Position numbers and translations under genes: made by a program
Notes under the pieces: generated by a model
The model's database searches: none
Told to the model about the DNA's origin: nothing
Seen by the model: only the letters and a program-made list of their open reading frames with translations
Part shown: positions 12,536-54,138 of the stretch, one piece after another
Layout of the letters: each line of letters opens with the position of its first letter
Position numbering within the stretch: the stretch's first letter is position 1
Source of the DNA: Planctomycetota bacterium
Lineage (GTDB): Bacteria > Planctomycetota > Planctomycetia > Pirellulales > Lacipirellulaceae
Assembly: GCA_003576855.1 (NCBI GenBank)
Contig: QEVI01000003.1
Span: 1-55,303 of the forward strand
Reading direction: 5' to 3'
Length of the DNA stretch: 55,303 nucleotides

Positions 12536-13006
12536 TCAGCTTTCCAGCTCCCGGACGCTGACCGCGTCGAGCAGCGAGCCCGCGACCGCGCCCCACACTA
12601 GGTGGGCGACGATCATCTGCATGTTCCGGCCGGCAGGTTCTTCTATGGCGCTGCGTCGGACTTTGGCCGCCGGCAACCAGCCCAAATAACTTGCGGCCCA
12701 CACCGCCATGCCGACTGCGGCGCCTGCTATAGGTCGAGGTAGCGGTAGCCGCCCAGCCGCCGCGCCGAGTAGGCCCCCAGCCGCGGCGCCAAAACCATAA
12801 TGGGCCGCCACCGTTAGTGCATCGATGTGGTCATTGGCCAGGCGGTGCTTCACCGCGGCCTTTTCGAGGGCGTGCTCGGTGATCTGCCGGGGCGGCAACC
12901 GACCTTGACTCTGCCGCGGCACATAGCGGTCGGCGGCTTTCATGGTCCACGTCATGGGCGCCGTGGCGATCGCACCGGCAATGCCGCCGCGGATTACGTT
13001 GTGCAT
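12536..13006 (-). CDS. Small membrane protein, unknown (DUF1440-like layout)
   Basis: The protein has 156 residues with Gly/Ala-rich hydrophobic segments near 5-20, 70-90, 93-113 and 132-150. It starts IRGGIAGAIATAPMTWTMKA, reminiscent of YagU/DUF1440-like membrane proteins. The match is by layout only. The ATG at 13006 follows GGTGAGG at good spacing. A sigma-54 promoter candidate (P2) lies about 45 bases upstream. It converges with the metallothionein-like gene. Confidence 0.7.
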   Translation of the reverse strand: MHNVIRGGIAGAIATAPMTWTMKAADRYVPRQSQGRLPPRQITEHALEKAAVKHRLANDHIDALTVAAHYGFGAAAGGLLGAAAGRLPLPRPIAGAAVGMAVWAASYLGWLPAAKVRRSAIEEPAGRNMQMIVAHLVWGAVAGSLLDAVSVRELES

Positions 13007-15450: not shown

Positions 15451-15660
15451 GACGTCAACGACGCGTCATTGGCTGCGCAACGCCCGCGCCAAGCACGGGC
15501 AGCAACCCTGCGCCAGACGACCCGGCCGCCCCGAATGCGTATAATCGTCGCAGCGCTGCGTCGCGAGTATGATAGCATTTGCAGATGGCGCCGCCGCGGA
15601 ATCCCGGTCACGGCTAATCCCGGCTGAAGGCATGCGCCCTTGTCGAACGCCCACCTACGA

Positions 15661-18600: not shown

Positions 18601-20016
18601 GGGTGCCAGTACGTCAACAAGGAGTTCCTGCGGTTCGTCGGCAGCGCCCTGGCCGACGTCCAAGGCATGAACTGGCTGAACTACGTCCACCCCAGCGACG
18701 CCAACGAGTACTACAAGAGCTACGTGGACGCGTTCGAACATCGACGCCCCATCGTCGCGCAATTCCGCTTCCGCCGCGCCGACGGCGAGTACCGTTGGCT
18801 CTCCGCGACCGGCGCCCCTCGCTTCCGGCCCGACGGCGCGTTCCTCGGCTACGTCGGCTGCTCCGTAGACATCACGGATATGAAATCGTCCGAAGAAGCG
18901 CTTCGCGAGGCCGATCGTCGCAAGGACGACTTCCTGGCCATGCTGGGCCACGAATTGCGAAATCCGCTCGCCGGCATCGTCACCGGCGCTCAGGTCCTCA
19001 GCATGCTCAGCCTGGAACCCGAAGCCGCCGAAATGCAGGCCGTGATTTCGCGGCAGGCCTCCTACATGTCGCGGATCGTCGATGATCTGCTCGACGTCTC
19101 GCGCATCGCCCGCGGAAAGCTGCGGCTACGTCACCAATACGCCAACCTCGGGCAACTGCTGCGCGACACCGTGGACGACTATCGCAAGAGCCGCTCGCTC
19201 GACCAGTGCGAGCTGCGCCTCCGCGTCCCCGACCAGCAGCTCTGGGTGTGGGCCGATCCCGCGCGGCTCGCCCAGGCCTTTTCCAACATCATCCACAACA
19301 GCTACAAGTTCAGCGACGGGGCCAACGTCATCACCGTCGAGCTGGCGGCCGATCCCGCCGCGGACAGGGCAATTGTTACGATCACCGACCGCGGCATCGG
19401 CATGGCCAAGGAAACGCTCGATCGGCTGTTCGAGCCATTCAGCCAGGCCGACACGACGCTGGAACGCAGTCGCGGCGGGCTGGGACTGGGCTTGGCCCTC
19501 ACCAAGGGACTCGTCGAACTGCATGGCGGCGACATTCGAGCGCACAGCGCGGGGCTCGGCCGCGGGGCGACGTTCAGCATCACGTTGCCGTGCGCCGCGC
19601 CGCCCGCCGAAACCGACGCCGCTGCGACCCCCCTCAGCCGCGCCGACAGCCAGCGCGTGCTGATCATCGACGATCGCCGCGACGCCATTCTGCCCCTCCA
19701 CAAAATGCTCGAAATGGACGGCCATACCGTCGAAACCGCCATGGACGGGCCCTCGGGCGTGAAGCTGGCCGGTTCTTTTCATCCGCACGTCGTGTTGTGC
19801 GACATCGGCCTGCCGGCGCCGATGAACGGCTACGCCGTCAGTCGCGCGTTGCGGACGCTGCCCGAGTTGGCGTCGGCCTACTTGGTGGCGGTCACCGGCT
19901 ATGGCCACGACGAGGCGCGGCGCCTGGCCAAGGACGCAGGGTTCGATTACCACGTCGCCAAGCCGGTCGGCAGGCTGCAACTGCGCGAGATCCTGGCTCG
20001 CCGGCCGACGTTTTGA
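15661..20016 (+). CDS. Multi-PAS hybrid histidine kinase
   Basis: This cytoplasmic sensor has about 1451 residues and no membrane segment. In order it has PAS (27-143), GAF (164-320), six more PAS/PAC units (about 331-1075), HisKA (1081-1156) with phospho-acceptor His in GHELRNPLAG, and a HATPase. The N box is NIIHNSYKFSDG, G1 is DRGIGMAKE, and G2 is GGLGLGLALTKG. A C-terminal receiver (1330-1450) has the acidic pair in IIDD, Asp in VVLCDIGLP and Lys in HVAKPVG. Seven PAS units suggest several signals, possibly redox or small ligands. Because it ends in a receiver, output needs an Hpt step, and a free Hpt protein is encoded at 28559. I prefer the ATG at 15661 over a TTG at 15640. The NtrC-type regulator follows 160 bases downstream. 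Confidence 0.93.
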   Translation: MTTSAATENGLKTAGETPSAGQPAHWQLIERLPAAVYACDVTGRITLFNEAAVRLWGVRPQLGHTRWCGSHRIYSTDGQPVPLDRCPMAVSLREQRPVPPTEIVVERPDGQRRHVLAHPELIRDDAGAVIGAQNMLVDITELKETEAALAGAKDDLAAQVEALTNLHDLAMTLAGPLDLHSALVAVVQTLVRVHGAQAGLVALHDPESGYLKTAASVGFSRRGQQLLGNVLPGMLAGARGSAFATGRRAVVEDVESDPRFEAYRAAAREAGFRAVHSTPILTRTGDLLGALSVHFAQRRVPTRREEQFADLCARHAADAIEAARSQQALRESEQRFSMFMRHLPGLAWIKDADGRYVFVNDAAERAFRRTQGELYGRTDRDLFSPATARQFTENDQQALTARTAVETIETLEHEDGVHHSLVSKFPIPGPNGEPSLIGGIAIDVTERVHAEQALRDSEERFRAVTMNAPVAIFIKDLEGRYTLCNPIASQALGAPQGAVGRTDYDLLPREVADRIRQFDLEVVNGGRAIECEEVLPRGGADRFFLSAKFPLRNVEGATIGVAGVAVDVTDRKRAQQALRESERRLLLATQAGKVGVWAWDIECNRISWSESLQNMLGANPAELPDGEGFESLVHPDDRPRVQQALQAALERNAPLELEFRAVRPDGGHAWLFSNASVIREGGKPVRMLGATLDITERKQSEIALSDSEARFRALARHAPVGIFQTDERGNNVFVNEGWQQMAGMTAEQAKGEGWINAIHPEDRERVLAGWNDALARTANSEAEFRFLRPDGVVTWLQGKAVPLRDQQGDMYGYIGTVVDITARKDAEAALRNSERMYRAIGESIDYGIWVCDAEGRNIYASESFLNLVGITQEQCSNLGWTELLHPDDVDQTVAAWRQCVAAGGSWDIEHRFRGRDGKWHPILARGVPVKNNRGEIVAWVGINLDISELKEVESELRESEARFRNMADNAPVLIWVHGVGGCQYVNKEFLRFVGSALADVQGMNWLNYVHPSDANEYYKSYVDAFEHRRPIVAQFRFRRADGEYRWLSATGAPRFRPDGAFLGYVGCSVDITDMKSSEEALREADRRKDDFLAMLGHELRNPLAGIVTGAQVLSMLSLEPEAAEMQAVISRQASYMSRIVDDLLDVSRIARGKLRLRHQYANLGQLLRDTVDDYRKSRSLDQCELRLRVPDQQLWVWADPARLAQAFSNIIHNSYKFSDGANVITVELAADPAADRAIVTITDRGIGMAKETLDRLFEPFSQADTTLERSRGGLGLGLALTKGLVELHGGDIRAHSAGLGRGATFSITLPCAAPPAETDAAATPLSRADSQRVLIIDDRRDAILPLHKMLEMDGHTVETAMDGPSGVKLAGSFHPHVVLCDIGLPAPMNGYAVSRALRTLPELASAYLVAVTGYGHDEARRLAKDAGFDYHVAKPVGRLQLREILARRPTF

Positions 20017-20176
20017 CAGCCGCAGGCGCGCTCCACAATCCGGCCGCCCAACTCCCGGCCCGGGGGGACTCTCGCAAATCCCCTGCCGCCGGATAGAATG
20101 AGTTTCTCGTAAACCCGATCGCCGGCAGCGGGCCGGTTTCTGGCCGTATCTGGCCACAGGATAGTGGTTTTTAAGC

Positions 20177-21628
20177 ATGGCTAGTCTGCTCGTGATCGAC
20201 GACGATCGTACGGTTCTCCTCCTCGTCAAGAAGGCGTTCAAGGATTCCGACGTGGTCGTCCATTGCGCCGGCGCCGCCGAAGAAGGCATGCAACTGCTGC
20301 ACGAGCACCGGCCCGACGCGCTGCTGCTGGACATCATGCTGCCCGAAACTTCAGGCATCGAACTGGCGCACGAGATTCGCGCCATCGACAACCGCCTGCC
20401 GCTGATCTTCATCACGGCGATGAACGACAGCGACACGGCCATCGAAGCCATGAAGATGGGCGCGTACGATTACCTGCTGAAGCCGCTGGACATCCGCCAG
20501 GTCCGCATCCTTATCGAGCGGGCGCTGGAAGTTCGGCGGTTGATGAACTCGCCCGTGCGGCTGCAAGAAGCGGAACCCGACTCCGAAGACAGCGACGTCC
20601 TGGTGGGCCGCAGCCCCAAGATGCTGGAAGTGTACAAGCAGATCGGCCGCGTCGCCGCGCAAGACGTGACCGTGCTCATCCGCGGGGAAAGCGGTTCGGG
20701 CAAAGAACTGATTGCCCGAGCCCTGTACCAGCACAGCCATCGCAACGGCGCCTGCTTCATGGCCGTCAACTGCGCCGCTCTGACCGACACGCTGCTGGAA
20801 AGCGAACTGTTCGGTCACGAAAAGGGCGCCTTCACGGGCGCCGACCGCCGGCACATCGGCCGCTTCGAGCAGTGCCATGGCGGTACGATTTTTCTCGACG
20901 AAGTCGGCGACATGTCCCCCGCCACCCAGAGCAAAGTCCTGCGACTGCTCCAAGAGCAGAAGTTCGAGCGGGTCGGCGGGCACGAGACCATCTCCGTGGA
21001 CGTCCGCGTGATTTCCGCGACGAACCGCGACCTGGAGCAGATGATCGAGAACAACGCATTCCGCCTCGACCTGTTTCACCGCCTGAACGGCTTCGAAATC
21101 CAGTTGCCGCCCCTGCGCGAGCGCCAAGGCGATCTCAAGCTCCTGCTCGACCATTTCCTCAAGAGGTTCAACGCGCAACTCCGCAAAAACATCACCGAAA
21201 TATCGCCCGAAGCGCTCCGCATGCTGGAGAATTACACCTGGCCCGGCAACATCCGCGAACTGCAGGCGGCCGTCCGGCGGGCGATGCTCATGGCCACCGG
21301 TCCGACCATCGTGCCGGAGTTGCTGCCCAAAGAAATCGTCGAGAACCTGCCGTCCGGCGCTGTGGCCCGCCGCGCCGCCAGCAGCGATGGCGCGCTAACC
21401 GTCGATCTGGCCGGTTTCGTCGATGAACGTCTCGCGGCCGACTCGATCAACTTGTATCAAGAGGCCCTGCATCTACTCGAACGATACCTGTTGACGCGCG
21501 TCTTGCGCGAGACGCAAGGGAACCAGTCGAAGGCCGCCCGCCGGCTGGGAATCACCCGCGGCAGCCTGCGGAACAAGATGCGCGAACTGGGAATCCAGGT
21601 CGGACAGGTCGTCGAACCCGGCGAGTAA
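20177..21628 (+). CDS. NtrC-family sigma-54 activator (response regulator)
   Basis: The protein has 483 residues. The receiver (1-120) has DDD at 8-10, phospho-acceptor D52 in LLLDIMLPETSG and K102 in LLKPLD. The AAA+ domain (about 141-375) has Walker A GESGSGKE (170-177), the sigma-54-contact loop GAFTGA (217-222), Walker B GGTIFLDE (235-242), and an arginine-finger region FRLDLFHRL. A Fis-type helix-turn-helix lies near 440-475 (NQSKAARRLGITRGSLRNKM). It should hydrolyse ATP to open sigma-54 promoters after phosphorylation. It directly follows the hybrid kinase and lies amid seven sigma-54 promoter candidates, so these are its likely targets. That link is inference. Confidence 0.95.
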   Translation: MASLLVIDDDRTVLLLVKKAFKDSDVVVHCAGAAEEGMQLLHEHRPDALLLDIMLPETSGIELAHEIRAIDNRLPLIFITAMNDSDTAIEAMKMGAYDYLLKPLDIRQVRILIERALEVRRLMNSPVRLQEAEPDSEDSDVLVGRSPKMLEVYKQIGRVAAQDVTVLIRGESGSGKELIARALYQHSHRNGACFMAVNCAALTDTLLESELFGHEKGAFTGADRRHIGRFEQCHGGTIFLDEVGDMSPATQSKVLRLLQEQKFERVGGHETISVDVRVISATNRDLEQMIENNAFRLDLFHRLNGFEIQLPPLRERQGDLKLLLDHFLKRFNAQLRKNITEISPEALRMLENYTWPGNIRELQAAVRRAMLMATGPTIVPELLPKEIVENLPSGAVARRAASSDGALTVDLAGFVDERLAADSINLYQEALHLLERYLLTRVLRETQGNQSKAARRLGITRGSLRNKMRELGIQVGQVVEPGE

Positions 21629-24995: not shown

Positions 24996-26948
24996 ATGGC
25001 ACGGCCGCGTAACTCCTCTTCGCCGCTGTTTACGCTCACGGCCATCATCATCGCCATCGCGGCTCTGCACGTCGCCAAGGAAATCCTGCTCCCCCTGGCG
25101 CTGGCCATCCTGATCAGCTTCCTGTTGACGCCGCTGGCTAACCGCTTAGAACGGCTCGGCCTCGGCCGCGTGCCCTCGGTCCTGGCCGTCGTAAGCGTGA
25201 CGTTCGCCGTGCTCGGGGTGCTCGGCTGGATCGTGACCTGGCAGTTGGCCGACCTGGGATCCCAGCTTCCCCGGGACCGCGTCAACCTGATCCGCAAGAT
25301 CGAGAGCATCAAGCCCCGATCCAGTGCGTTGCAGGACATCACCGATACGATCGAAGACGTAGAAAAAACGCTGGCCAAAGACGACGCCGTGGCCGACGCG
25401 CAGCGGCCGGACGCGCCCAGCGACGAGCCGGCCAAGAGTCCGCGCGACCGGCTGGCACAGGCCGATTCCGACGAAAAACGATCGACCAACCTCTACTCGT
25501 TCTTCCAGTGGAGCACCGATTACGACCAATCAGCCGGGCCGGGAGAGCGGGCGGAACAGGAACCTATCGACGTGCGGGTCGTCGGCATGCCGCTGTCGCC
25601 GCTGCAGCAACTGCTGTCGTGGATGGGTCCGCTGATGGCCCCGATTACCACCGCCGGCGTCACGATCGTCCTGGTGATCTTCATCCTGCTGAAGCGAGAA
25701 GACCAGCGCAACCGCCTGTTGCAACTGTTCGGAAAGTCGCATCTCCACGCCACGACCGAGGCCCTGACCGATGTCACCGAGCGGGTCAGCCGTTATCTGC
25801 GAATGCAGTTCTTGATCAATGCTACGTACGGCGTATGCGTGGGCGCGGGACTCTATTTCATCGGCGTTCCCGGCGCCATCATGTGGGGCGTGCTCAGCTT
25901 CGCCCTGCGGTTTCTGCCCTACATCGGGCCCTGGCTGTCGGCCGTCATGCCGCTGCTGGTCTCCGTCGCCCGGTCCGAAGGCTGGACGCAGCCGATGCTG
26001 GTCATCGCCTGGTTTACGCTTTTGGAACTGCTGGTGAACAACGTCGCCGAGCCTTTGCTCTACGGCCGAACCACGGGCGTGTCCGGCGTGGGCGTCATCG
26101 TGGCCGCCATCTTCTGGACGTGGGTTTGGGGCGCCGTGGGACTGGTACTCGCCATGCCGCTGACTGTGTGCATCGTGGTGATGGCGCGGTACATCCCCGG
26201 ATTGCATTTTCTCACCGTGCTGCTGGGCGACCAGCCGCCCATGTCCGACGAGCAACGCATCTACCAGCGGCTGCTGGCCGGCGACGGGGACGAGGCCCTG
26301 GAGCTCGTCGCCCAGCGGGTGAAAGCAACCTCCCTAGCCGAGGCCTACGACGAGGCCGTGATCCCCGCCATCGCCCTGGCCGAGGCGGACCGCCACGCCG
26401 CCCTGCTCAACGAAGACCAGGAAGAGCTCGTCGAAGCGACCGCCCGGGATTTGGTGGAAGAGCTCGGCGAGCGCTATGCCGCCGCAGCGCCGGCGTTGTC
26501 GTCCGATACGCCAGCCGATGGTCCCGCGACGCCAAGGCGCCGGCTGCGCGTTCTCGGCATCCCGCTCCGCGACGACGCCGATGAGATCAGCGCCATCATG
26601 CTCAAGCAGCTACTGGACCAGGAAGGCATGGACGTCGAACTGGCGGGCGTGCAGACGCTTACCGGCGAAGTCGTGGAACTCGTTCAGCAAGAGCAATTCG
26701 ACGCCACCGTGATTTGCATCCTGCCGCCCTTGCCGCCGCGGAACAGTCGGCTGCTGTGCCGCCGTCTCCGCGACCGGCATCCCGCCCTGTCGATCATCGT
26801 CGGCTATTGGTGCGGCCAGTGCCACCCCGAACTACGGCGCCGCCTGTGCGCCGAAGACGGCGAGGCCGTCACCACGCTGGTCGAGGCGGTGGAGCGTTTG
26901 AAGGCCATTGCCGCCCGGCCTCAATTGGCCGCGGAGCGAGCGGGTTGA
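24996..26948 (+). CDS. AI-2E/PerM-family permease with extra C-terminal domain
   Basis: The protein has 650 residues. Hydrophobic helices at about 10-35, 58-82 and then 205-420 match the AI-2E transporter (PF01594) layout, including the large soluble loop after the third helix. The usual family length is about 350-400. Here a soluble C-terminal part of about 220 residues follows. A helical segment, RLLAGDGDEALELVAQRV, resembles the cap of cobalamin-binding modules. A Rossmann-like half follows (RRLRVLGIPLRDDADEISAI), in which the DxHxxG cobalamin motif is not conserved. The start is ATG at 24996; another ATG at 24992 is out of frame. Members export or import small molecules or ions; the substrate is unknown. 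Confidence 0.85.
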   Translation: MARPRNSSSPLFTLTAIIIAIAALHVAKEILLPLALAILISFLLTPLANRLERLGLGRVPSVLAVVSVTFAVLGVLGWIVTWQLADLGSQLPRDRVNLIRKIESIKPRSSALQDITDTIEDVEKTLAKDDAVADAQRPDAPSDEPAKSPRDRLAQADSDEKRSTNLYSFFQWSTDYDQSAGPGERAEQEPIDVRVVGMPLSPLQQLLSWMGPLMAPITTAGVTIVLVIFILLKREDQRNRLLQLFGKSHLHATTEALTDVTERVSRYLRMQFLINATYGVCVGAGLYFIGVPGAIMWGVLSFALRFLPYIGPWLSAVMPLLVSVARSEGWTQPMLVIAWFTLLELLVNNVAEPLLYGRTTGVSGVGVIVAAIFWTWVWGAVGLVLAMPLTVCIVVMARYIPGLHFLTVLLGDQPPMSDEQRIYQRLLAGDGDEALELVAQRVKATSLAEAYDEAVIPAIALAEADRHAALLNEDQEELVEATARDLVEELGERYAAAAPALSSDTPADGPATPRRRLRVLGIPLRDDADEISAIMLKQLLDQEGMDVELAGVQTLTGEVVELVQQEQFDATVICILPPLPPRNSRLLCRRLRDRHPALSIIVGYWCGQCHPELRRRLCAEDGEAVTTLVEAVERLKAIAARPQLAAERAG

Positions 26949-37993: not shown

Positions 37994-38682
37994 GTAGCGG
38001 TTTCAGGTAGGAGTATCAGTCTTGCGAACTTGCGGCATGCCGCACGGCGCCCAATCTAGCCGGCCCGCCACGCGGACCGGCAGCGGGGCGCCCCTCGCGC
38101 AGACGCCCCGCTGCCGCGGGCGGTTCACAGCGAACGGGCCATTGTAATGACTGCTTGCAGACGACGGGAGGCGGCGCGGGCCCCGGGCCGCCGGCGCTAG
38201 CAGCCCGCGGCGACGCCCCAGCCGCGGCGTCTGCCGCGGCGACTCGCCGCAATCGCCCTGCTCCAGGGCCAGGTTGGCCTTGTAAGAATTACGAAACTTG
38301 GCGACATTCCCACCGCAGCGCTGAAGAACCGCTCGCCTTCGGCTCTGCCATCCCTGTGCAGCGAGGGCCCGAAACATCGACCTTCGTCGCGCAAAACGAC
38401 AACCAGCTACCACCTACACCCATCGGCCGAAGTCGCACGCTTGGGGCGAAGACGGATCTTCGACCGCAAGCGACCTCGCACGACGCCGGCCGGCAGATCG
38501 CCAGGACAACAAGGAACGTTGTCGCGCGTAATCGTCGTCATCAGGCTGGCACGGCTGTGCAGCTTCTGAGGCGCCGGGGCGCCGATCCCGCTCTTCTCGC
38601 CGTTGCCGACGATCTGGCAATGCCCCCGCGCCGGGCCGCCCTGCGACCCGCGCCTACGACCGCCGAGTCCATGGAGGGAAAC
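37994..38682. other. Intergenic region with a perfect 12-bp inverted repeat
   Basis: About 690 bases without a supportable gene. Frames open here lack domains. At 38079-38090 and 38104-38115 a perfect 12-bp inverted repeat (GGCAGCGGGGCG) encloses a 13-base loop, upstream of metG. It could act on the metG leader or stabilise a transcript end. Confidence 0.5.
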
Positions 38683-40323
38683 ATGGCCTGGTCTCGCACC
38701 GTCGCACTTGCGCTAGCGGCCGCGCTCGCCGGCGCCGAGGCGTTGGCCGACACCGTGCTGCTGGAGTTCACTTCGCCGACCTGCGGGCCATGCCACGCCA
38801 TGCGTCCGGTAATCCAGCAGCTAAACGCCGCCGGATACGCGGTCCGCGTGATTGACGTCAGTCGCGAGCCGGCGGTCGCGGCGCAGCATCGCGTGCGGGC
38901 GGTCCCCACGTTCGTCGTGTTGGTCGACGGCCACGAGCGCGCCCGGTGGGAGGGGGGCGGCCAGACGTTCGCCCAGTTGTCGGCCATGATCGACAAGGCC
39001 TCGGCCTTGGGATCGCCTTCGATCGACTACGTCGGCGCTTCGTCTGCGGCGACCGGCGCCCCGGCCGCCGATGGCCCGCAATCATTCGCCGAACCGCGCC
39101 CCGGACGGGTCGTGCCGCTCGATGCGAAGCCGCCGGTCGTTGCCGCGCAGCCGCCCGCCACTCCGGCCGGCGCCGCCCCGGGCGGCGATGTGGCCACGCT
39201 GGTGGCTGCTAGCGTTCGGCTCACCGTCGAAGACCCCAACGGCAAGAGCACCGGCACGGGAACCATCGTCGACGCCCGACAGGGAAAAGCCCTGGTGCTC
39301 ACCTGCGGCCACATCTTCCGCGAGTCCAAGGGCCAAGGCGCCATAACGATCTCGCAATTCAAGCCGGGCCCGGCAGGGGCTGAACTTTGCGGCACGGTCG
39401 AGGGGACGCTCATCGACTACGACCTCCAGCGCGACCTGGCCCTGGTCTGTTTCGTTACCAGCGGGCCGACCGCCGTGGCGCCCATTGCTCCCGCGGGAAC
39501 GCTCATTCGCACGGACCTGTCGGCCACCAGCGTCGGTTGCCAGCACGGGGCGAACCCGACGCCCTGGCCCACGCGAATCACGGCGGTCAACCGCTACCAG
39601 GGGCACCCCAACATCGAAGCGGCCGGCGCTCCGCAGGAAGGCCGTAGCGGCGGCGGCTTGTTCAACGCCGCTGGGCAGCTCATCGGCGTGTGCAATTGCG
39701 CCGACCCGCAGGGCGACGCCGGCCTGTATGCGGGGCTTGATTCGATCCATCAGAAGCTTGACGCGATGGGTTTGGCGTTCGTTCACCAAAGCCCCTCGCA
39801 AGGCGCGGCCGCGACGAACGCCCTGGCGTCCCAGCCATCTCCAGCGGCCAGCGTCGCCAGTCCGGCGGCATTAGCTCCGGCCACGGTCCAAGTCCGCGGG
39901 CAAGACCCGGCTGCTGATGGAGTCGCCGGTACGGCGAATGTGCTGGGCTCGACGACCGTCAATCCCTTTGCCCAAGCAACCGCCGCCCAGCAGCCGCCGC
40001 AACTGGCTGCCGCGCAGCCGCAGGTCGCCCCAGCGGCGGCCGGCCCCGGCGCCGCGCCGCCGGTCCGTCAAGTCGCTCCCGCGGACATCGCACCCGCGGC
40101 GTTCACGGCCGAGGAACAGGCGGCATTGGCGGAAATCAATCGCCGAGCCGCCGAGGCCGAGGTGATCTTCATCGTGACGCCCCGCACGCCGGGCGGGCGC
40201 AGCGAAGTGATCAAGCTCGATCGCGCTTCGCCGGCGTTCCTCGAGGCCCTACGCGCGTCCGCTGGCGACGCCGCGGCCGCTCGCCCCCTCGACCGCCAGG
40301 CAGCCTCCGCGCTGACGCGCTGA
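38683..40323 (+). CDS. Thioredoxin-like domain fused to trypsin-like protease
   Basis: The protein has 546 residues with a signal peptide (1-22). A thioredoxin fold has active site CGPC at 34-37 (TSPTCGPCHAM) and the cis-Pro loop VRAVPTFVVLVDG. A Pro/Ala linker follows. A trypsin-like domain (about 170-375) has a His in LVLTCGHIF, an Asp in DLQRDLALVCF and a Ser in GRSGGGLFNAAGQLIG. The last about 165 residues are Ala/Pro/Gln-rich, ending in a short charged part. The serine site reads GRSGGG rather than the usual GDSGGP, so activity needs testing. The ATG at 38683 follows GGAGGG; an in-frame ATG at 38671 overlaps that site. The protein is exported and could combine disulfide handling with proteolysis. 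Confidence 0.88.
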   Translation: MAWSRTVALALAAALAGAEALADTVLLEFTSPTCGPCHAMRPVIQQLNAAGYAVRVIDVSREPAVAAQHRVRAVPTFVVLVDGHERARWEGGGQTFAQLSAMIDKASALGSPSIDYVGASSAATGAPAADGPQSFAEPRPGRVVPLDAKPPVVAAQPPATPAGAAPGGDVATLVAASVRLTVEDPNGKSTGTGTIVDARQGKALVLTCGHIFRESKGQGAITISQFKPGPAGAELCGTVEGTLIDYDLQRDLALVCFVTSGPTAVAPIAPAGTLIRTDLSATSVGCQHGANPTPWPTRITAVNRYQGHPNIEAAGAPQEGRSGGGLFNAAGQLIGVCNCADPQGDAGLYAGLDSIHQKLDAMGLAFVHQSPSQGAAATNALASQPSPAASVASPAALAPATVQVRGQDPAADGVAGTANVLGSTTVNPFAQATAAQQPPQLAAAQPQVAPAAAGPGAAPPVRQVAPADIAPAAFTAEEQAALAEINRRAAEAEVIFIVTPRTPGGRSEVIKLDRASPAFLEALRASAGDAAAARPLDRQAASALTR

Positions 40324-44201: not shown

Positions 44202-47200
44202 TCAACGGACCTCGCCAGCCCCGCCGCGCTGCAGGCGCCGCGCCTTGAACAGCGCCGCCAGTGAAAGGACGATAATCGCCGGCCCCACCAGCGGCGGCCA
44301 CAACGCGATCCACCAGAACACGCCGACGGCAAGGCCCGCCGCCGCCGGCGCCCAAGACGACTTTAGCACGTGGTCGAACCATGCCGGACGCCGCCACGCC
44401 ACTCCCATCCCGGCCACTAGCCCCACCGCCACCAGCCATCGTCCGAGGCTGAATCCCGCTGATGGCGCACTCAGCGTCAGCCGACCGTCGCCGGCGCCCT
44501 CATAGCAGGCGCCGCTGGTCGACTCGCTTACCAGTCGCCGCGGCGCGCCGCTCCGCCGCCTCTCCGCCTGCGGCACGACGGCGCCCAAACGTTCGACGAG
44601 GGCGTTAAAAGCCGATTCACGCTCATCGCCGTCGCCTGCCGGTCCCGGCGGAGCCGCCCCGATGCGGTCCAGCCACGGCAAGAACCATTGATCGGCCTCC
44701 CAGCCGGGCAACTGCAGCGCCAGGGGGCTGGCCTCCACCACGGCGGCCAGCCGCTCGTCGCGAACCGCTCGGGCGAGCCTGTCACGCGAGAGCGTTGGGA
44801 CGCCGTCGGCGGCCCGCCATCGACTACTGGGCGCGTCGACTTCCCATAGCGCACGAGCAATCCCGAACGGGCGGCCTGCCTGCACCACCTGGGGAGTCGC
44901 CAGCGCCACAGGTCCGCTGCCGTGGGCCCTCGTCCTGCGGAAGGCGACCGTGACGGTCCGGGGCAAGTACGGCGACCCCGGCGGCGCTGCGAACTTGCGG
45001 CTCGACAGCGCTAAGCCATCCACGGGCTGTCCGTCCACTTCGGCGTAAAGCAGTTCGACTTCTTCAGGCATATTGATCGTCCAGTCGGTAAGCCCCCCCG
45101 GCTGGACGATGATCTCGCTCACGGCCGACCAGCCGCCCCGCTCGTCCACGACCGCGCGGGTATAAAGGAGCCGGACGCCGGCTTGCCGGAGGACCTGCGG
45201 AAACACGCGCCGCTCGGCGACGAACCGTTCCCGCTCAACGCGATAGGCGGGACTCTCCCCGGCCGGCCCCGCATCGCTTGCCAGCTCCGCGGGCAACGGC
45301 GCCTGCTCGACGCCGATGAGCGTCCACTCGGCCGAATGGCTGCCCGCGGCCGGCGGCAGCGCCAGGTACAGATCCTGCCGGGCGGCGTGCAGCAACGTCA
45401 CGGCCGGGAATCGCACGCGTTGGTTCGCCCGCAGATCGAGGCCGCCTTCGAGCCGAAGCGTAAACTCGCTGCCTTGCGGCGCCGGCTCAAGCAGCTTCAA
45501 CGAGACCAATCTCCGGGAGTTGTCGTTGGGCAGCGTTCGTTCGGAGACGACCGCGTCGCCGCTACAGGCCAGCGGCCCTTGCCATGAGGCGTCGACCACC
45601 AGCGACAGCGAGTCCACGACGCCCGCCGCCACTTCGCCGCGCAGCACGCATGTCGCTCGAGGATTCGCGGAACCGTCTAGTTGCAGCAGCAATTGCCCGT
45701 GCAGTTCCGCGGCGTTGTCTCGGACCGCGACCGTCGGCGGAACGTCGTCATTGCGGCCCATCTCGAAGCGGGCCACCGGCAAGCCGGCTAGCTCTCCGTC
45801 GCCGGGCGACAGGTCCAACTCGCCGCCGGCGTCGACGCCGGCGCCAAGTTCAACCAAGACGTCGCTGGAGCGATTGACGGCCACGCGAATGGGCGACGCC
45901 GAAGCGCCCGCCAGCAGCATCTTGGGCACCTGCGTTCGCCGGTGCTCGTCATACGGCAGCCGTCCGGTAATGCGAATCGTATGCGGCTCGTCGAGCGGCC
46001 TGCCCAGGAAGATCTGCACCAGGTCGCCGCGCGGTCGCGACCACCGCGCCGCCATCGGGGCGGCGGCCGCATCCAGCTCGACCGATGCGCTTTCGACTTG
46101 AAACTCCGCCGGGACCATGACGCCGTGAACGAGCGTTTCACCCTCCAGGCTGCCGACCGCGGCGGTGTAGGAAACCGCCACGTCGCGCCGGCTGCACGAC
46201 AGGCCGAGCGTTTCGCTGGCAATGAATCGAGCAGCCGACTTCTCCACGTACATCGACCATGGCGGCCTGGCGCCGCTCGCGCCATAGCGAAGCTGCGCCG
46301 GCGGCAGTCCCGACCACCGCTGGTCGATTTCCGCTCCCGTCAGCGGCGCCATGCCGACCGCCGGCTCGTCCCGCAGGCGAAGCGTCGGGTCGGCCGTCAC
46401 GACGAAGTGGTGCAGCGCGGGCTCGACGTCGGCTAGCCGCACCGAGGGGAAAGCGAATCGCCCGATCGACGACATCCGCTGCAGTTGAAACCGCAAGACG
46501 AGCGCCAACGGCAACTGCGGCGGGCCGCGGAATTTAAGCTCCACCACGTTGGGCGCGCCCGGATGCGTCTGCAGCTCGTAGACGGGCGACGAATCCGGAA
46601 GCGGCAGCAACTTCAATTCGGGCGACGTCGCCAAATGCAACGTGTCCATCGAAGAGACGTCGCCGGCCAGCAGTAGCCGAACTTCAAGCGTGCTGTTTGC
46701 CGGCTCGACGTTCAACCAGGTGAGTTGTTCCAGCTTGATGCCGTCCGCCGCGGCGGCTGGCATGCGAGCGGGCCAACGGCAATCGAGGACGCCGCCGCTT
46801 CCCAGCGTCGCCGCGGTGCGGGTCTGACTCGACGCGGCCCGATCCACGACGGCGTCGCTCACCGTGGGAGCGATCCCCGGAGGATGCACGATTTCCACGT
46901 GCGCACCGGGCACGGGGGGAATCTGCAACGTCAACTGCCGGCGATCGCCCACGCGAACCGCCTGCGGCGCCACGACCAGCTCCAGCTCGTGCAGGCCGGC
47001 GTCGGCCATGGAAACCGTGCAACCTTCCGATCCGTTCCAAGCGACATGGACCGGCAAACCATCGAGCGTCTGTTTCTCTGCAAGCCAGACGCCGTCGCTC
47101 TGCAACAGCGGAAGAGCGACCGTGACGTTCGGACCCATCGTCCGCCAGCGCAGTCGCAGCACGCATTGGCTGCAAACCACGTCCTTGCCGTTCGCCGCAG

Positions 47201-50200
47201 CCGATAGTTCAATCCGGTGGTTGGCCGCGGCGAGCACGGCCGACTTCTCGTCCAGCGGGCCCGCTGGCGAGGGAGATAGCTCGTTGAACAGCGACGCCGG
47301 CACGTAGACGTCGGCGCCGACCGGCTTGCCGTCCTCGTCGATCGGATAGAGAACCGCCGGCGGCGTCGCGACTTGCGCCCTGGCGGCTGGCGCCTGGCCC
47401 CACGCCAACGACGCGACCACGGCGCAACAAGCGGCTACGTGGCCTGCACCGCGTACTGCGCTCGTTTGCGTGGCCGCAACGACGCCGCGCGCCGCCGTAC
47501 CGGCCAGCGCGCCCAGCAACACCGCCTGCGGCCACGGGGCGGCCCACATCGGCACGATCAACGCCAGCGCGGCCGCGGCGACGGCGCCGGCGACAATCCA
47601 GCGCGGCTTCGCCATGCAATAGCGCGCCGCCAACAGCGCCGTTATCAACCACGCGATATGCCACGCCGCCTGGCGGCTTCCCACGTGGGCCAGGGATGTC
47701 GGCCGCGGCTCGCCGACGAATTGCTGACTGACGGCCGTCCAGCCGGCCGGCGCCAACGGCGCTCCCGTTTCACGCTCAGCCAATCGGGCGGCGCCGACGT
47801 GCCCCGCCGCCGCTTTCGCTTCGGCCAGAACGCCGCTGCGGGAGCGAACCGACGCGGCGCTTGGCAACAGGGGGCCGAACAGCCGGGCCAGCCAGTCTTC
47901 TCGCCCCCGTGGCGAACGATCCGTCTCGCTGGGAACGTAATGCGCCGGCGCCGATACGGTCCATCGCCCGTTTAGTACAGGGAAGGAAGCATGAACTTGC
48001 GGCGGAGCAACGGCCGCAAAGTTGCCGAGCTCCGCGCGGCGACCCTCGACATCGAGCACCAAAGCCGATCCGCCTTCCCGCGGGACGAGCTGCAATTCCA
48101 ACTTCTCGCCGGGTCCAATACCCGTCGTGCGACCGTCGAGTCGCGCCGCCGTGACCCGAAGGCCGCTAGCCGGGGCCAGGCTGATTCGGCAAGTGGCCTG
48201 CGTCTCGAGGTGATAAACGAACCGATGGGTTTGCCGACCGTCGTCGAACTGGAGCGTCTCGATTTCCAGCCGCCAGCAAACCGCCTGTGCGTCGTGGTCA
48301 ACGGCCGCGGCACGGCGGATCGTCAACGACGGCGCCTTTTCCTGGGTGACAAAGGGATCGTCGCTCAGGCGGAAGCAACCCAGGACTCGACCCGCTTCGT
48401 CGGCCGGTCGCGGGCTCGGCCTGGCGGCCGCAGGCAGAAAGCCGGCCGCGTCGACCGCCACTTCGCTGGCATCGCCGCGAAGAATAGCCCAGCTTTGCCA
48501 TGTCGTGGCGCCAGGTAGGGCAATGGAGTTGACACGGTCGCCGCCGGCCTGGCTACCGCGCCAGGCAATCTCCAGCTCGAACGGTCGACTCTGCGGCCGG
48601 GACAAGCGGACGCGATACTGGTTGACTGCCTGCTCCGCGGCTGCCGAGTCGTTCGCTTGTTCTCGCTGGGCGCTGCCAAGCGGCTCGACATGCACCGGCA
48701 AGTCGCTTCCGCGCAACGTCCATCGGGCGTCGGCAGGTATCGGGCGGGCGGCCAGTACCGTCAGTTCGTTCACCGCTCCGGAAGTAGGACGGCAGGCGAC
48801 CACGGTGCGGTGCTCAAAGCCGGCGCCCGACTTCGCCAGTTCCAGTCGCCCTTCGGCGTCAAACCGGGCCGGCACAAACGGGGCGCGAATCGCCACGTCG
48901 CCGCGGGCGACCGCCAAATCCACCAGCAAGCCTCGCGCGGGCAGCTCGAGGAGATCGCGGCTCGACGTATCGAGCGACTCAAGCTCGACGAGCCCCGGGG
49001 CGTCGATGGCGTCGGCGACCAGCGCGCCGCCGCCGCGGTCGCGCACCAGCAGATGTTCGGTGCGAAGATCGGCGTCGCGGAAATCGAGCCAATCCAGTTC
49101 GCCGACAGTCGCCGCCCGGAGCCAGCTACGGATGGGCCGCCGTCCGGTGAGGACCAACCGCAGCGGCGCGAGCGCCGTCGGCGATCGGCGCAGTTGAACG
49201 CTTAACTGCCGCTGGTCCCCCTCGCCAGAGACGTGCCAGGAGACGACCTCGTCGGGCGAGGCCGCCTCGACCGATTCCAGCGTCCATTCCGGATCCACCG
49301 TCGCCGCGAGTTGAAACAGCCGCCCTTCATCGGACCAAAGGCGGGCATGCGTTCGGGCAAACACCTCGCGATCGGCCAGCTCGGCCGTCGTGGCGACCTG
49401 CGCGGCGACTCGCGGCGCCTGCTTGGATACGGTCACGGAAATAGCCGCCTCGGGGTCCCACAACTGCAGACGATAAGCCTCGCCGCGGTCGTCCGCTCCG
49501 CCGATGCCCAGGGTGTTTACCAGTTGGCCGCCCCGGACGTCGATGGCCTGCAGCTCAAGCGCTTCGTCCACCAGCAGCGTGCTCGTCCCCTCGGTCCAAA
49601 AAGCCGCCAGCGGCGCTACAAACGGCAGCTTCCACGGCTTGCCGAGGACGGTCGGCGCCGTCGCGCGAACGGTAATGTTCACGGGCAGCGTCGATCGGGG
49701 AACCGATACCTGGAACGTCTCGCCGTCGTCCTCGCGCCGAAACGCCACTGGTCGCCGATCGATCAATACCTCCGCGATGCGCAACTGGCCGACCGCGCGG
49801 AACACGACCTCGCTTGCCGCGAGCGACTCCACGCGCAGCACCGCTTCGTAATCGAGCCCCGCGGGCCGAAGCTGATACGCCTCGGAAATCGCGACCTGCG
49901 GCCGCGGATCAGCCGGCGCCTCCGCGGCGGCAGGGCGGCGAATCTTCAGCCGGTGCTCGGCGCCGGGACCAAGCTGCAACACATGCCGCTTCGTCGTCGG
50001 GCCCCCTTTTGAATTCGGTTCTCGAGCATAGCCCGGCGAAATCGACGGCAGGCAGTCCGGCGGCAGGTCGAGCTGCAGTTGGCTGGCCGTCGCGGCCGGC
50101 AGCCGGAGCTGAAACACCAGCTCGTCGCCGAGGACCGTCCTGGGGGGCAGCGTCCAATCGAAATGCAATTCGCCGCTATTTCGCACCAGCGCGCCGAAGC

Positions 50201-50693
50201 CATCCGCGCCGCCCTGCCACTGGCCGATGAGCGACCTGGCGCCCTGGGCGGGTTCTCCTGCCCAGCGGGCATTGGCGAGGCCGATATTCAGCGGCGCCAG
50301 CGGCAGGACCCGCGGGCGATTGTCCAACAGACTGACCCGCAGCGCCGCGCGGCCCCGCAAGGCGCCGTCGTCGGTCAGTTCAGCCGCATACTGCGCACTG
50401 TCGATCTGCACGCCCACGGCCGAGGCCAGGTCGCGGCGCTCTTCGGTCGACTTCACGAGTCGCTCGAACTCGTCGCGAGCCATCGGCAAATACGGCGCAT
50501 CGCCGGTCGGCCAATCCTCCAGCCGCCCCTCCGGTACGAAGACGCGGCGATAGATCGCCCCGCGCCGGGCGCCCAGCGGAGCTGCGACGCCTGCCGACTG
50601 CTCGGCCCGCGCGGCCGGCGCGAGAACGGCCGCAAGCGCCAGCAGCAGGCCCGCCAGCAGCGCGACGCGCCGATAAAGCCCCCGCCCGATCAT
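44202..50693 (-). CDS. Giant secreted/envelope protein, apparent two-module fusion
   Basis: The protein has 2163 residues with a signal peptide (1-32, ending APAARAEQ). Module A has a beta-rich ectodomain to about 990, then membrane segments (about 1005-1070, HIAWLITALLAARYC and further). At about 1075-1098 a second signal-peptide-like stretch appears (AACCAVVASLAWGQAPAARAQ), directly followed by VLYPIDEDGKPVGADVYVP. Module B repeats the plan, with membrane helices at about 2084-2105 and 2114-2150. Each module is about 1080 residues, like the upstream protein. I recognise no enzyme domain. The ATG at 50693 overlaps the stop of the upstream gene by 4 bases, so translation is coupled; upstream in-frame codons (from 51056) are antisense-like. 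The function is unknown, perhaps an envelope structure. Confidence 0.85.
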   Translation of the reverse strand: MIGRGLYRRVALLAGLLLALAAVLAPAARAEQSAGVAAPLGARRGAIYRRVFVPEGRLEDWPTGDAPYLPMARDEFERLVKSTEERRDLASAVGVQIDSAQYAAELTDDGALRGRAALRVSLLDNRPRVLPLAPLNIGLANARWAGEPAQGARSLIGQWQGGADGFGALVRNSGELHFDWTLPPRTVLGDELVFQLRLPAATASQLQLDLPPDCLPSISPGYAREPNSKGGPTTKRHVLQLGPGAEHRLKIRRPAAAEAPADPRPQVAISEAYQLRPAGLDYEAVLRVESLAASEVVFRAVGQLRIAEVLIDRRPVAFRREDDGETFQVSVPRSTLPVNITVRATAPTVLGKPWKLPFVAPLAAFWTEGTSTLLVDEALELQAIDVRGGQLVNTLGIGGADDRGEAYRLQLWDPEAAISVTVSKQAPRVAAQVATTAELADREVFARTHARLWSDEGRLFQLAATVDPEWTLESVEAASPDEVVSWHVSGEGDQRQLSVQLRRSPTALAPLRLVLTGRRPIRSWLRAATVGELDWLDFRDADLRTEHLLVRDRGGGALVADAIDAPGLVELESLDTSSRDLLELPARGLLVDLAVARGDVAIRAPFVPARFDAEGRLELAKSGAGFEHRTVVACRPTSGAVNELTVLAARPIPADARWTLRGSDLPVHVEPLGSAQREQANDSAAAEQAVNQYRVRLSRPQSRPFELEIAWRGSQAGGDRVNSIALPGATTWQSWAILRGDASEVAVDAAGFLPAAARPSPRPADEAGRVLGCFRLSDDPFVTQEKAPSLTIRRAAAVDHDAQAVCWRLEIETLQFDDGRQTHRFVYHLETQATCRISLAPASGLRVTAARLDGRTTGIGPGEKLELQLVPREGGSALVLDVEGRRAELGNFAAVAPPQVHASFPVLNGRWTVSAPAHYVPSETDRSPRGREDWLARLFGPLLPSAASVRSRSGVLAEAKAAAGHVGAARLAERETGAPLAPAGWTAVSQQFVGEPRPTSLAHVGSRQAAWHIAWLITALLAARYCMAKPRWIVAGAVAAAALALIVPMWAAPWPQAVLLGALAGTAARGVVAATQTSAVRGAGHVAACCAVVASLAWGQAPAARAQVATPPAVLYPIDEDGKPVGADVYVPASLFNELSPSPAGPLDEKSAVLAAANHRIELSAAANGKDVVCSQCVLRLRWRTMGPNVTVALPLLQSDGVWLAEKQTLDGLPVHVAWNGSEGCTVSMADAGLHELELVVAPQAVRVGDRRQLTLQIPPVPGAHVEIVHPPGIAPTVSDAVVDRAASSQTRTAATLGSGGVLDCRWPARMPAAAADGIKLEQLTWLNVEPANSTLEVRLLLAGDVSSMDTLHLATSPELKLLPLPDSSPVYELQTHPGAPNVVELKFRGPPQLPLALVLRFQLQRMSSIGRFAFPSVRLADVEPALHHFVVTADPTLRLRDEPAVGMAPLTGAEIDQRWSGLPPAQLRYGASGARPPWSMYVEKSAARFIASETLGLSCSRRDVAVSYTAAVGSLEGETLVHGVMVPAEFQVESASVELDAAAAPMAARWSRPRGDLVQIFLGRPLDEPHTIRITGRLPYDEHRRTQVPKMLLAGASASPIRVAVNRSSDVLVELGAGVDAGGELDLSPGDGELAGLPVARFEMGRNDDVPPTVAVRDNAAELHGQLLLQLDGSANPRATCVLRGEVAAGVVDSLSLVVDASWQGPLACSGDAVVSERTLPNDNSRRLVSLKLLEPAPQGSEFTLRLEGGLDLRANQRVRFPAVTLLHAARQDLYLALPPAAGSHSAEWTLIGVEQAPLPAELASDAGPAGESPAYRVERERFVAERRVFPQVLRQAGVRLLYTRAVVDERGGWSAVSEIIVQPGGLTDWTINMPEEVELLYAEVDGQPVDGLALSSRKFAAPPGSPYLPRTVTVAFRRTRAHGSGPVALATPQVVQAGRPFGIARALWEVDAPSSRWRAADGVPTLSRDRLARAVRDERLAAVVEASPLALQLPGWEADQWFLPWLDRIGAAPPGPAGDGDERESAFNALVERLGAVVPQAERRRSGAPRRLVSESTSGACYEGAGDGRLTLSAPSAGFSLGRWLVAVGLVAGMGVAWRRPAWFDHVLKSSWAPAAAGLAVGVFWWIALWPPLVGPAIIVLSLAALFKARRLQRGGAGEVR

Positions 50694-53600
50694 GGCGCCG
50701 ACCCGCTGGATTGAAGACTTGGCGCGGCGGCGCGGCCGGAACCGGCGCCCCCGTCGGCGACCCAGGGCTGCGTCGGCGCCACGCTGGCGATCGAGCTGGC
50801 CGGCGGAGATGCCGGCGCCGGCCGCGTCGCCTGCCCGTCGGCCAGCAGCCACTGCGTCAGGGCCGAGATCGCGGTGAGCGCCCCCCCTAAGGCAGCGGCC
50901 TGGATCATCAGCACGGCCGCTTCCGGGTAGCTCAGCAGCAGCGCGATCGAAGCCACGCTGACCACGGCCCAAAACGCCGACGAGCGGCCGATCGCGGTGT
51001 GCAGCCACGCCAGCCCGATCACCAGGGCGCACAGTCCCGCGGCGACGATGATCCAAATTCGCCGCACCGCCAGCACGCTCACGGCAGCCGGCGGCTCGAA
51101 CCCGCTATACAGGTACTGGTTGGTCGAAGGAGGCGGCGACGGCGCTTTGGTCGCGCCGGTCCACCGCTCCAGTTCGCCCTGCGTCTGCGTCGGCTGACGG
51201 CCCCACGACATGCCTTGCCAACCGAGCAAGTACTCCGGGCTCATGCCCGGCGGCGCGCCGATGGCGGTCAACCCGCGCGGCAGAATAAGCTGCCAGAAAA
51301 AGGGCCGGCCGCTATCGCTCCCTTCGACGCGGGGCAGCGCCACGTCCACCCGATTCCAAGGTCCTTGCTTTCGCCGCGACTGGACGCGCAGTTCGATCGT
51401 GTGCAGCGCCTGTTCGGCGCTGGCCGCCAGCTCAACCACCACGCGGCCCGGCTGCGAATCCTCGATGGGCCTCGCGACGCCGTCGCACAGCAGCTCCAGC
51501 GGATGGTTGGCGACGCTCGCCGGCAGAATCAGCGCCGCTTGCGGCGCCCGGGTTTCAATGCGGTACACGAAGCGGTCTTGGCGTATGTCGCCCGACACCC
51601 ACGTTTGGGCCCAGCTCGCCACGACCCGCACCAGTTCCGGCGGCGCCGCCGCGGCCCGCTCGAAGACGAGCGCCACGCTGACGAGCGGCTTGTTCGTAAC
51701 CGCGGAAAACGCCGCGCCGTCGTCGCCGGGCGCGTCTGGCAGCGCCACCCAGCCCGCCGCAGCGCTTTGCCGCGAAAGGCTCGCCGACATGCCGCTCGCC
51801 AGGCGGAGCTTCACTGTGCTGCTCATGGGATGCACCGACGAGGCCAGCGGCACGGCAATCGGTTCGCCGCCCACCCGCTGGCCGTCGCTCAGTCGCAAGG
51901 CGCTGCGAATTCCCAAGACCACGCGGCCCAGCGTCGGGCGCGCTAAGCGCACGACCAGGCGCTGGCTTTCCGGCGCGGCCGCCGCTTGTTCCGGCGTCGG
52001 CGCGAGGACTTCGGCGGCCGCCGCAGGCAGCGGCTTGCCATCCAGCAGCAGCGTCAACCCTTCGTTGGACAGCAGTGCCGACGGAACCATCGCTTCAAGC
52101 TCCGTCGCCGGTTGATGCGCAATATCGAAGCGCAATTGCTGTTCAACTTCCAGGCGGCCGTCGAGCATCCGCGCCTCGATGAGCGATTCGCGCGTAATGC
52201 GTTGCTCCTGTTCGACGACGTCGACCGCGACCGTAGACCGCGCCAAGTAACACTGCAGCCGATGGACTAAACCGCCGCCCCGGCCATTGCGCCCGGCCGC
52301 CTGGTCGACCGGCTCGACCGCGGCGACGGCCCGCTCGTCGAGAGGCGCCACGCCCACGGAATCCTCCAGGCGCACATTCGCCTGCCAGGCCGGGTCGCTC
52401 GTGATCGTCAACGTGCCCGGTAGCACGGCGGCGCCGGCGGCCGCCGGCAGCGGCAGATCGTGCGCGCCCAGCCCGACGGCGCGACGCAAGCTGAAGCGGA
52501 CGCGAACCTGCTGGGCTGCGGGATCGGCCAGCGGCAGCACCAGCTCGCCCTCCGGCGTCACATGTTGGGCCGCGGCGTCGACGGCCCCGCCGGCTTCCAG
52601 CGGCTGCTCGGTCAGCTCCCAGCCCTCCAGTCCGATCCGCAATTCAAAGGTCCGGCCGCCGGTGATGTGGTAGTCCAGCACGACGTCCAACACCGTCCCG
52701 CGGCTACTGAGGTGGAGGTTATAGGTTGGCGTTACGCGAATCTCTCGCTGCCGCGGCTGCGTATGGACGTCGACATGCCAGCCGCTGCCGGAAATGGCAA
52801 ACGCGGCCAAGGGCGCCGTCCTCCGCAGCGTTTCGGGGAGTTCCGCCGGAGCAACGCGTTCGATCCGCCCGTGGGGCGAAAAACGGGCGGCTGCGTCGCC
52901 GGCTGGACCAAGCGCAACTCGACGATCGACTGCGGCTCGGCGGCCGTCGGCTTGACGATCGGCACGAGCTCGTAATCGGTCGTATCCGGCGGCGCCGATG
53001 CGACCGCGCCCGCCGGCAGCCGCAAGTGCACCCGTTCGATCGGCTGGTCCGCGCCGCTGAGCTTGAGCCACGCTTCGTACCACAGCCGACCGGGCTCGAC
53101 GCTCGCGATGGTCTCTACCGTGGCTTCCAGGGCGGGCTCGTCGCTGCCGGCCAGTTCCGGCGCGGCCTCGCCCCACCGCAGCACCAGCCGGCCCTTGGCG
53201 CCCTCGATCTGCAAGACCTGCCCGCCCTCGTCGTCGGCTGCCGGCGTCGCGAGCACCCCCTCGGGGGATTCAACGACCGGAAGGCTGGAAGCCGCCACCC
53301 TCACCGTGGAGGCGACGGCTGTCGGCAGGTCGACCGCCAGGCGGCGAACGTCTCCTTGCCGCTCGAGCGCTAGCCGTCCGGCCATGACGATCGTGCGCTT
53401 ATCGCCCGGTTTGCCCTGGAGCCACGCGGCGTAGGTGTTCCTTGCGGCGTCGAAGCGGACGAATTCCTGTTCGCTGCCGTCGCTGATGGTAGCGCTCTCG
53501 GTGATCAACGGGCCGAAGCCCAGCGGAACCTCGACCCATGCCGACGTATGAAGCTCGACCGTAGCAGTGGCTTCGACTTCCGCCAATTCCGGGCCGGCGG

Positions 53601-53913
53601 TCGCCTCGACGGCGAGTCTCTCGACCGAGTACTGCGGCGGGGCCACTTCCGCCTCGCCGTCGTCGCCGGCCTGCCACGCCTTGAGAAAGTCCTCGTACCG
53701 GTATCCGAGCACGCGGCGAAGCTTTCCGGTCGCGTCGGGCAGCAGAAAAACGTCCGGGCCGGCCGCGCTGGCCGCTCCGGTCGCCGGCACAGCGGCGGCG
53801 GCGATCGACGGCGGCTCGCCCGCCGGACCGCCGGCGTCCTGCGCAGCGGCGCTGGTCGCCATCAGCCCGCAGGCCAACGACGCCGCTGCCACGAGTTTTT
53901 GGAAAAAAGACAC
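50690..53913 (-). CDS. Large envelope protein, frame interrupted near 52880
   Basis: Reading through one apparent frameshift gives about 1075 residues. The signal peptide (1-27) is followed by VFLLPDATGKLRRVLGYRYEDF and a long beta-rich ectodomain. Three to four membrane segments follow (about 945-1025, RRIWIIVAAGLCALVIGLAWL and on), then a Pro/Ala/Ser tail. The 5' frame is open to 52732 and the 3' frame from about 53176. Family-like sequence switches at the T5 run 52879-52883: VELRLVQPATQPPVF continues as SPHGRIERVAPAELPETL. One extra T would restore a single frame. The start is GTG at 53913 (TTG at 53919 is possible). The gene is coupled to the giant gene. Confidence 0.75.
52879..52883 (-). 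other. Frameshift site (T5 run)
   Basis: On the coding strand CCC-GTT-TTT-CGC must change to TCG-CCC-CAC to stay in the conserved frame. This equals a -1 shift or one missing T. A TTT codon could re-pair one base back, but the run is short for efficient slippage. Confidence 0.75.
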
Positions 53914-54138
53914 GGCCAAAAATGAGGGGTCAGCAGGACCGGCCCGATTGCTCTACGGAGGGACCGGCGCGGTAGTTCCGCCCAGAGCGCGGCTGCGCCA
54001 GCTCGACGGTGTGCCGGGAAGACGAGTGGGTACTTGTATTGTAGGCAGAAAAGGCCTGGCCCTAAACCGTTTACCGCAAACCGCAAGCCGCGCCGCCTGA
54101 CCGAAACAAGCGGCAGAATCGCGCCTGCGCAAAACGCG

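Follow-up and report, generated by a model that had tools for sequence, protein, structure and literature searches.

Three homologous modules of a putative planctomycete envelope complex, two of them fused across a signal-peptide-like segment

Ribophorin I (Ost1) is a subunit of the oligosaccharyltransferase, for which several structures are available (6ezn, 8agb, 8b6l). Its luminal part consists of two similar beta-sheet domains, and the protein binds glycosylated peptides (PMC7226087). OST1 has been reported from eukaryotes and from TACK/Asgard archaea (PMC11417166), and a BLASTp search for it gave no bacterial match (PMC4973528). Both the fold discussed below and the presence of tandem domains resembling the N-domain of M1 aminopeptidases in ribophorin I are known already. 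FbcH of Bradyrhizobium, a cytochrome b/c1 polyprotein, carries an internal signal sequence and is cut into two envelope proteins. The planctomycete cell envelope is itself unusual. In one planctomycete species, more than 100 essential genes are of unknown function and specific to the phylum (PMC10632474). Literature searches for planctomycete ribophorin and for polyproteins in bacteria returned nothing direct, and no description of the arrangement reported here, three related modules found across the phylum with an internal signal-like segment, was found in the literature and libraries searched.

The window, that is, the whole stretch of 55,303 nucleotides that was analysed, contains the gene pair that is the subject of this study. 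Elsewhere it encodes a 722-aa protein combining a thioredoxin domain with a trypsin-like protease domain (38155-40323), an AI-2E family transporter with a weak, sub-cut-off B12-binding match at its C terminus (24996-26948), and a hybrid histidine kinase with many PAS domains that adjoins a sigma-54-type response regulator (15640-21628).

A gene pair encoding three homologous modules

The pair consists of a first gene, U (50690..53919), and a giant gene, G (44202..50693), and all of their features described below lie on the minus (-) strand. The original prediction had placed both genes correctly. U encodes a signal peptide, a beta-rich ectodomain and three C-terminal membrane helices (50867..51058). 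G encodes a protein of 2163 aa that divides into module A (residues 1-1106, 47376..50693), running up to a possible cleavage site between ARA and Q, and module B (residues 1107-2163, 44202..47375). Module A closes with three membrane helices (residues 1011-1027, 1033-1049 and 1051-1067; 47493..47663), and module B with two (residues 2080-2096 and 2120-2136; 44286..44456) and possibly a third after them. The order of signal, beta-rich ectodomain and C-terminal helices that had been predicted for each unit is borne out by hydrophobicity for U, A and B and, for A and B, by structural models. In the window the start ATG of G overlaps the stop codon of U (ATGA), and the same 4-base overlap, with the start codon lying on the stop codon of U, is seen at 25 of 38 loci. 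Translation of the two genes is probably coupled.

One part of the prediction did not hold. U had been read as a single gene of about 1075 residues, overlooking a frame change that splits it in the window into two overlapping open reading frames (52732-53919, 395 aa, and 50690-53176, 828 aa). The reading that is homologous to U in relatives passes from one frame to the other where five T stand in a row, near 52,880 (window 52,860-52,890), and complete U genes in relatives are a single frame of about 1,100-1,320 aa. The source assembly of the window is fragmented (417 contigs), and the frame change is either a sequencing or assembly error or a real break.

To compare the modules, relatives of U and G were gathered from 59 related genomes, and larger stretches were then retrieved. 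Plain pairwise searches gave no significant link between the U, A and B modules. Profile-profile comparison with hhalign (local alignments) linked all three: U to A with an E-value of 3.1e-44 over 957 columns, A to B with 1.6e-38 over 833 columns, and U to B with 1e-37 over 824 columns. Controls with reversed profiles, which preserve composition and conservation, gave E-values of 0.014-0.067 and probabilities of at most about 3% in six comparisons. A single U profile also directly matches A and B modules in distant planctomycetes. The homology thus lies far past chance, and the reversed controls fail to reproduce it. This confirms homology among U, A and B along almost all of their length, and with it the proposal that the gene pair carries three copies of one module. 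The opening motifs, VFLLPDATGKLRRVLGYRYEDFLKAW in U (53674..53751), YRRVFVPEGRLEDWPTGDAPYLP in A (50484..50552) and VLYPIDEDGKPVGADVYVP in B (47298..47354), had been singled out as resembling one another, and the A-B and U-B alignments do begin by pairing these openings.

A genome in which the three modules are separate genes, which the original prediction had suggested looking for, was found at locus L105. There the U profile matches the separate second gene (1.6e-53) and the separate third gene (6.6e-41). In a FastTree phylogeny the labels U, A and B cluster, needing 4 changes where shuffled labels need 24 on average, and each of the three L105 genes groups with its counterpart among U, A and B. 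Branches in this tree are long; the clustering of labels was used and the deep branching order was left aside. A second candidate for a three-gene genome, L106, was rejected, its A/B junction (12740-12920) being in frame save for a single TAG.

The junction between modules A and B

The helices that close module A are followed by an internal signal-peptide-like segment (residues 1076-1106, with a hydrophobic core at 1082-1098; 47376..47468) that ends at the possible site between ARA and Q. Exactly three helices plus a signal-like segment are present at the A/B junction in 27 of 35 giants, the segment and the surrounding charges being scored by rules rather than by SignalP. Among these 27 four-segment giants, the loop between the first and second helices is net positive in all 27, that between the second and third in none, and that between the third helix and the signal-like segment in 25. 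In 25 of the 27, the residues that follow the fourth segment carry a net negative charge. Taken together, these charges suggest that A lies outside, that the three helices cross the membrane, that the positive loop before the signal-like segment is inside and that B is again outside.

The same topology signals would also fit a signal anchor. The giant would then stay uncut, the internal segment adding a fourth helix in the membrane, and A and B would remain one chain with two ectodomains on the outer face of the inner membrane, an arrangement that is possible and that we regard as rather doubtful. The residues after the segment bear on both readings. A strict Ala-x-Ala motif follows it in only 18 of 27 giants, which favours an uncut chain, whereas 26 of the 27 have the looser small-x-Ala motif at this place, compared with 9-19 at the other three helices, which argues for a cleavable signal, although Ala-rich stretches readily yield small-x-Ala. 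The acidic character of the stretch after the segment (25 of 27) likewise speaks against an anchor. Retention of the fusion in most carriers of the phylum is easier to reconcile with one continuous chain, yet the unfused arrangement at L105 points the other way. Its separate A gene ends in membrane helices and its separate B gene opens with an ordinary signal peptide, as expected if the internal segment of the giants is a fused signal peptide.

The original prediction had included an internal signal sequence that would give B either its own export or a hairpin in the membrane. The segment is conserved, and the charges around it are consistent with export starting anew, which supports the first of these. 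Judged from these sequence features, B is probably exported in a step of its own, and a signal-peptidase cut between A and B, near residues 1098-1106, is possible.

Internal repeats and predicted fold

The modules are themselves repetitive. Domains 2, 3 and 4 of module B match each other (E-values of 3e-8 to 8e-12). Searched with the profiles of these domains, U, A and B each show three copies that share one register and are spaced by about 175 residues, the weaker of these matches having E-values near 1e-4 to 1e-6. At the sequence level the three repeats occupy about residues 261-386, 420-565 and 606-759 in A (48417..49913) and about residues 1312-1454, 1481-1621 and 1655-1795 in B (45309..46760). 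The first and fifth domains are too diverged in sequence for repeat detection and appear as beta-sandwich stretches in the structural models. Each module therefore probably has five domains, and one domain type would recur at least nine times, and probably about fifteen times, across U and G. The unit of about 1,080 residues originally described stands as a homologous module, with the refinement that the module is an array of a smaller repeat.

Structural models of A and B were generated using AlphaFold2. The mean pLDDT was 69.6 for B and 63.7 for A, with pTM below 0.4. Both models share the same 11 aligned sequences from four genomes, since the narrow profile alignment found three loci only. 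With such middling confidence, the relations between domains within each model are not to be trusted. Both modules are predicted to form beta-sandwich arrays of the same type with the same closest folds, as expected if they are copies of one unit. The closing helices are visible as well in the B model, which extends to the C terminus.

The best Foldseek matches of both models are integrin alpha chains and ribophorin I. Taken singly, the modelled domains resemble the N-domain of M1 aminopeptidases: A domain 1 (residues 92-254, 49932..50420) with Z about 14 to ERAP1 and IRAP, A domain 2 (residues 260-423, 49425..49916) with Z 14.0 to aminopeptidase N, B domain 1 (residues 1145-1310, 46764..47261) with Z about 12, and B domain 3 (residues 1488-1657, 45723..46232) with Z about 12 to ERAP1. 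These single-domain fits are at about 3-4 Å over about 145-165 residues, and their Z-scores of 12-14 are well over background, for which the tool gives Z 7-8 as typical of models that lack a clear match. The likeness extends to tandem domains. In the model, A domains 1-2 (residues 90-426) align with yeast Ost1 (6ezn_A) over 306 residues with Z 13.9, at an rmsd of 13 Å that probably stems from a differing orientation of the domains, and residues 379 to 711 of the B model align with Ost1/ribophorin I within the same range of Z 12-14.

Sequence comparisons gave no counterpart to this structural likeness. The M1 N-domain family (PF17900) had no match at E-values up to 1 in the members scanned, its profile-profile probability was at most about 6%, and Ribophorin_I (PF04597) had no match in members and none over the cut-off in 39 related genomes. 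Because sequence support for common descent is absent, the resemblance to the M1 N-domain and to ribophorin is one of fold. Searches of Pfam, NCBIfam and PDB sequences with U, G and relatives gave no usable family; scattered Pfam matches, such as those to DUF5693 (7 of 22 U proteins) and TgpA_N (one protein), do not cover the modules and were discarded. The original statement that no known domain explains these proteins is therefore correct for sequence libraries and incorrect for fold, which the models predict to be M1 N-domain-like and ribophorin I-like.

Integrin alpha chains are the top Foldseek matches by E-value, which would suit surface adhesins or receptors built like them or like other beta-sandwich stalks. 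We consider this unlikely, as TM-scores to integrins are about 0.1, the single domains fit M1 N-domains far better, and the modules are anchored through hydrophobic helices, in the manner of proteins of the inner membrane. Far less probable still are degenerate or unusual M1-group peptidases. The predicted fold is that of the M1 N-terminal domain, but the matched domain is the non-catalytic one; HExxH occurs in only 4 of 108 modules, and the absence of any Pfam match to the M1 catalytic domain in the members scanned is strongly against a peptidase.

Distribution, proposed role and relation to known systems

G was found in 38 of the 59 relatives, and U stands beside G in nearly all inspected loci. 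The U profile matches 69 of 79 sampled Planctomycetia genomes and 25 of 69 genomes sampled across Planctomycetota. Some families have a second, longer copy. Longer giants of about 2,700-2,860 aa are found at L117, L119, L128, L132, L134 and L144, and several of these genomes also hold an ordinary U-G pair, the longer giant belonging to a second paralogous set.

The U-G set is absent from several related genomes, even by profile search. At two empty sites the genes that flank the pair, an inositol monophosphatase and a conserved gene of about 180 aa, lie 247 bases apart (G035, L169 12852-14405) and 62 bases apart (G034, L170 8265-9642) instead of 10,114. This clean absence between the same neighbours in two relatives indicates that the pair is dispensable. 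No partner gene is conserved beyond the U-G pair in the neighbourhoods of relatives. The upstream inositol-monophosphatase gene was considered as a functional clue and set aside as local synteny of the order.

An artefact of assembly or composition, which the fragmented assembly (417 contigs) and the frame-broken U of the window might suggest as the source of fusion and similarity, is refuted by the many independent genomes, among them several single-contig ones, in which the fused G is an open frame, and by the failure of reversed profiles of the same composition to match.

The reading we favour, with reasonable though far from full confidence, is that the planctomycete envelope has a single non-enzymatic complex with a binding or scaffold role, whose three subunits U, A and B are ancient paralogues of one another. 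Each module would be exported by a signal peptide, would display about five beta-sandwich domains at the outer face of the inner membrane and would be anchored there by its two or three C-terminal helices. The domains would have the non-catalytic M1 aminopeptidase N-domain fold, arranged in tandem as in ribophorin I. A and B would be made as one chain in which the segment between them acts as a second signal that restarts export for B and offers a signal-peptidase site. The supply of the two modules would thereby be equal, whether they end up as separate proteins or stay joined by the inter-module segment. The complex may act by binding, as a scaffold or receptor for a periplasmic protein or glycan, or as a spacer. 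Such a role appears most likely because neither a consistent enzyme motif, nor a catalytic domain, nor a conserved partner gene was found.

A more specific version, which we regard as a long shot, is that the set is a bacterial counterpart of a ribophorin-like translocon accessory. It would comprise three co-made arrays of M1 N-domain-like domains, two of them from a polyprotein with an internal signal, and would bind exported polypeptides or glycoproteins. Whatever its function, the family is large, widespread and unnamed, with a probable place in the envelope and a history that can be read as domain repeat, module triplication and fusion, and G offers an instance in which the idea of a bacterial polyprotein carrying an internal signal peptide can be tested.

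FbcH offers a parallel for that last feature. The proteins are unrelated, the products of FbcH are not paralogues as A and B are, and FbcH is cut, whereas cleavage of G is proposed from its junction. Integrin alpha chains combine a beta-propeller head bearing metal sites with leg domains. The legs, like the modules as modelled, are long membrane-anchored arrays of beta-sandwiches, but the whole-chain TM-score is about 0.1 and single domains fit better elsewhere. With M1 aminopeptidases the modules share the predicted single-domain fold of the N-domain (PF17900); they differ in their tandem use of it, in having no catalytic domain and in showing no significant sequence or profile match. Compared with ribophorin I/Ost1, the modules have no detectable sequence similarity and no link to glycosylation was seen. 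What they share with it is the predicted layout of a membrane protein with tandem beta-rich domains in its ectodomain, in a longer form with about five domains per module, three modules, and two or three anchor helices where ribophorin I has one.
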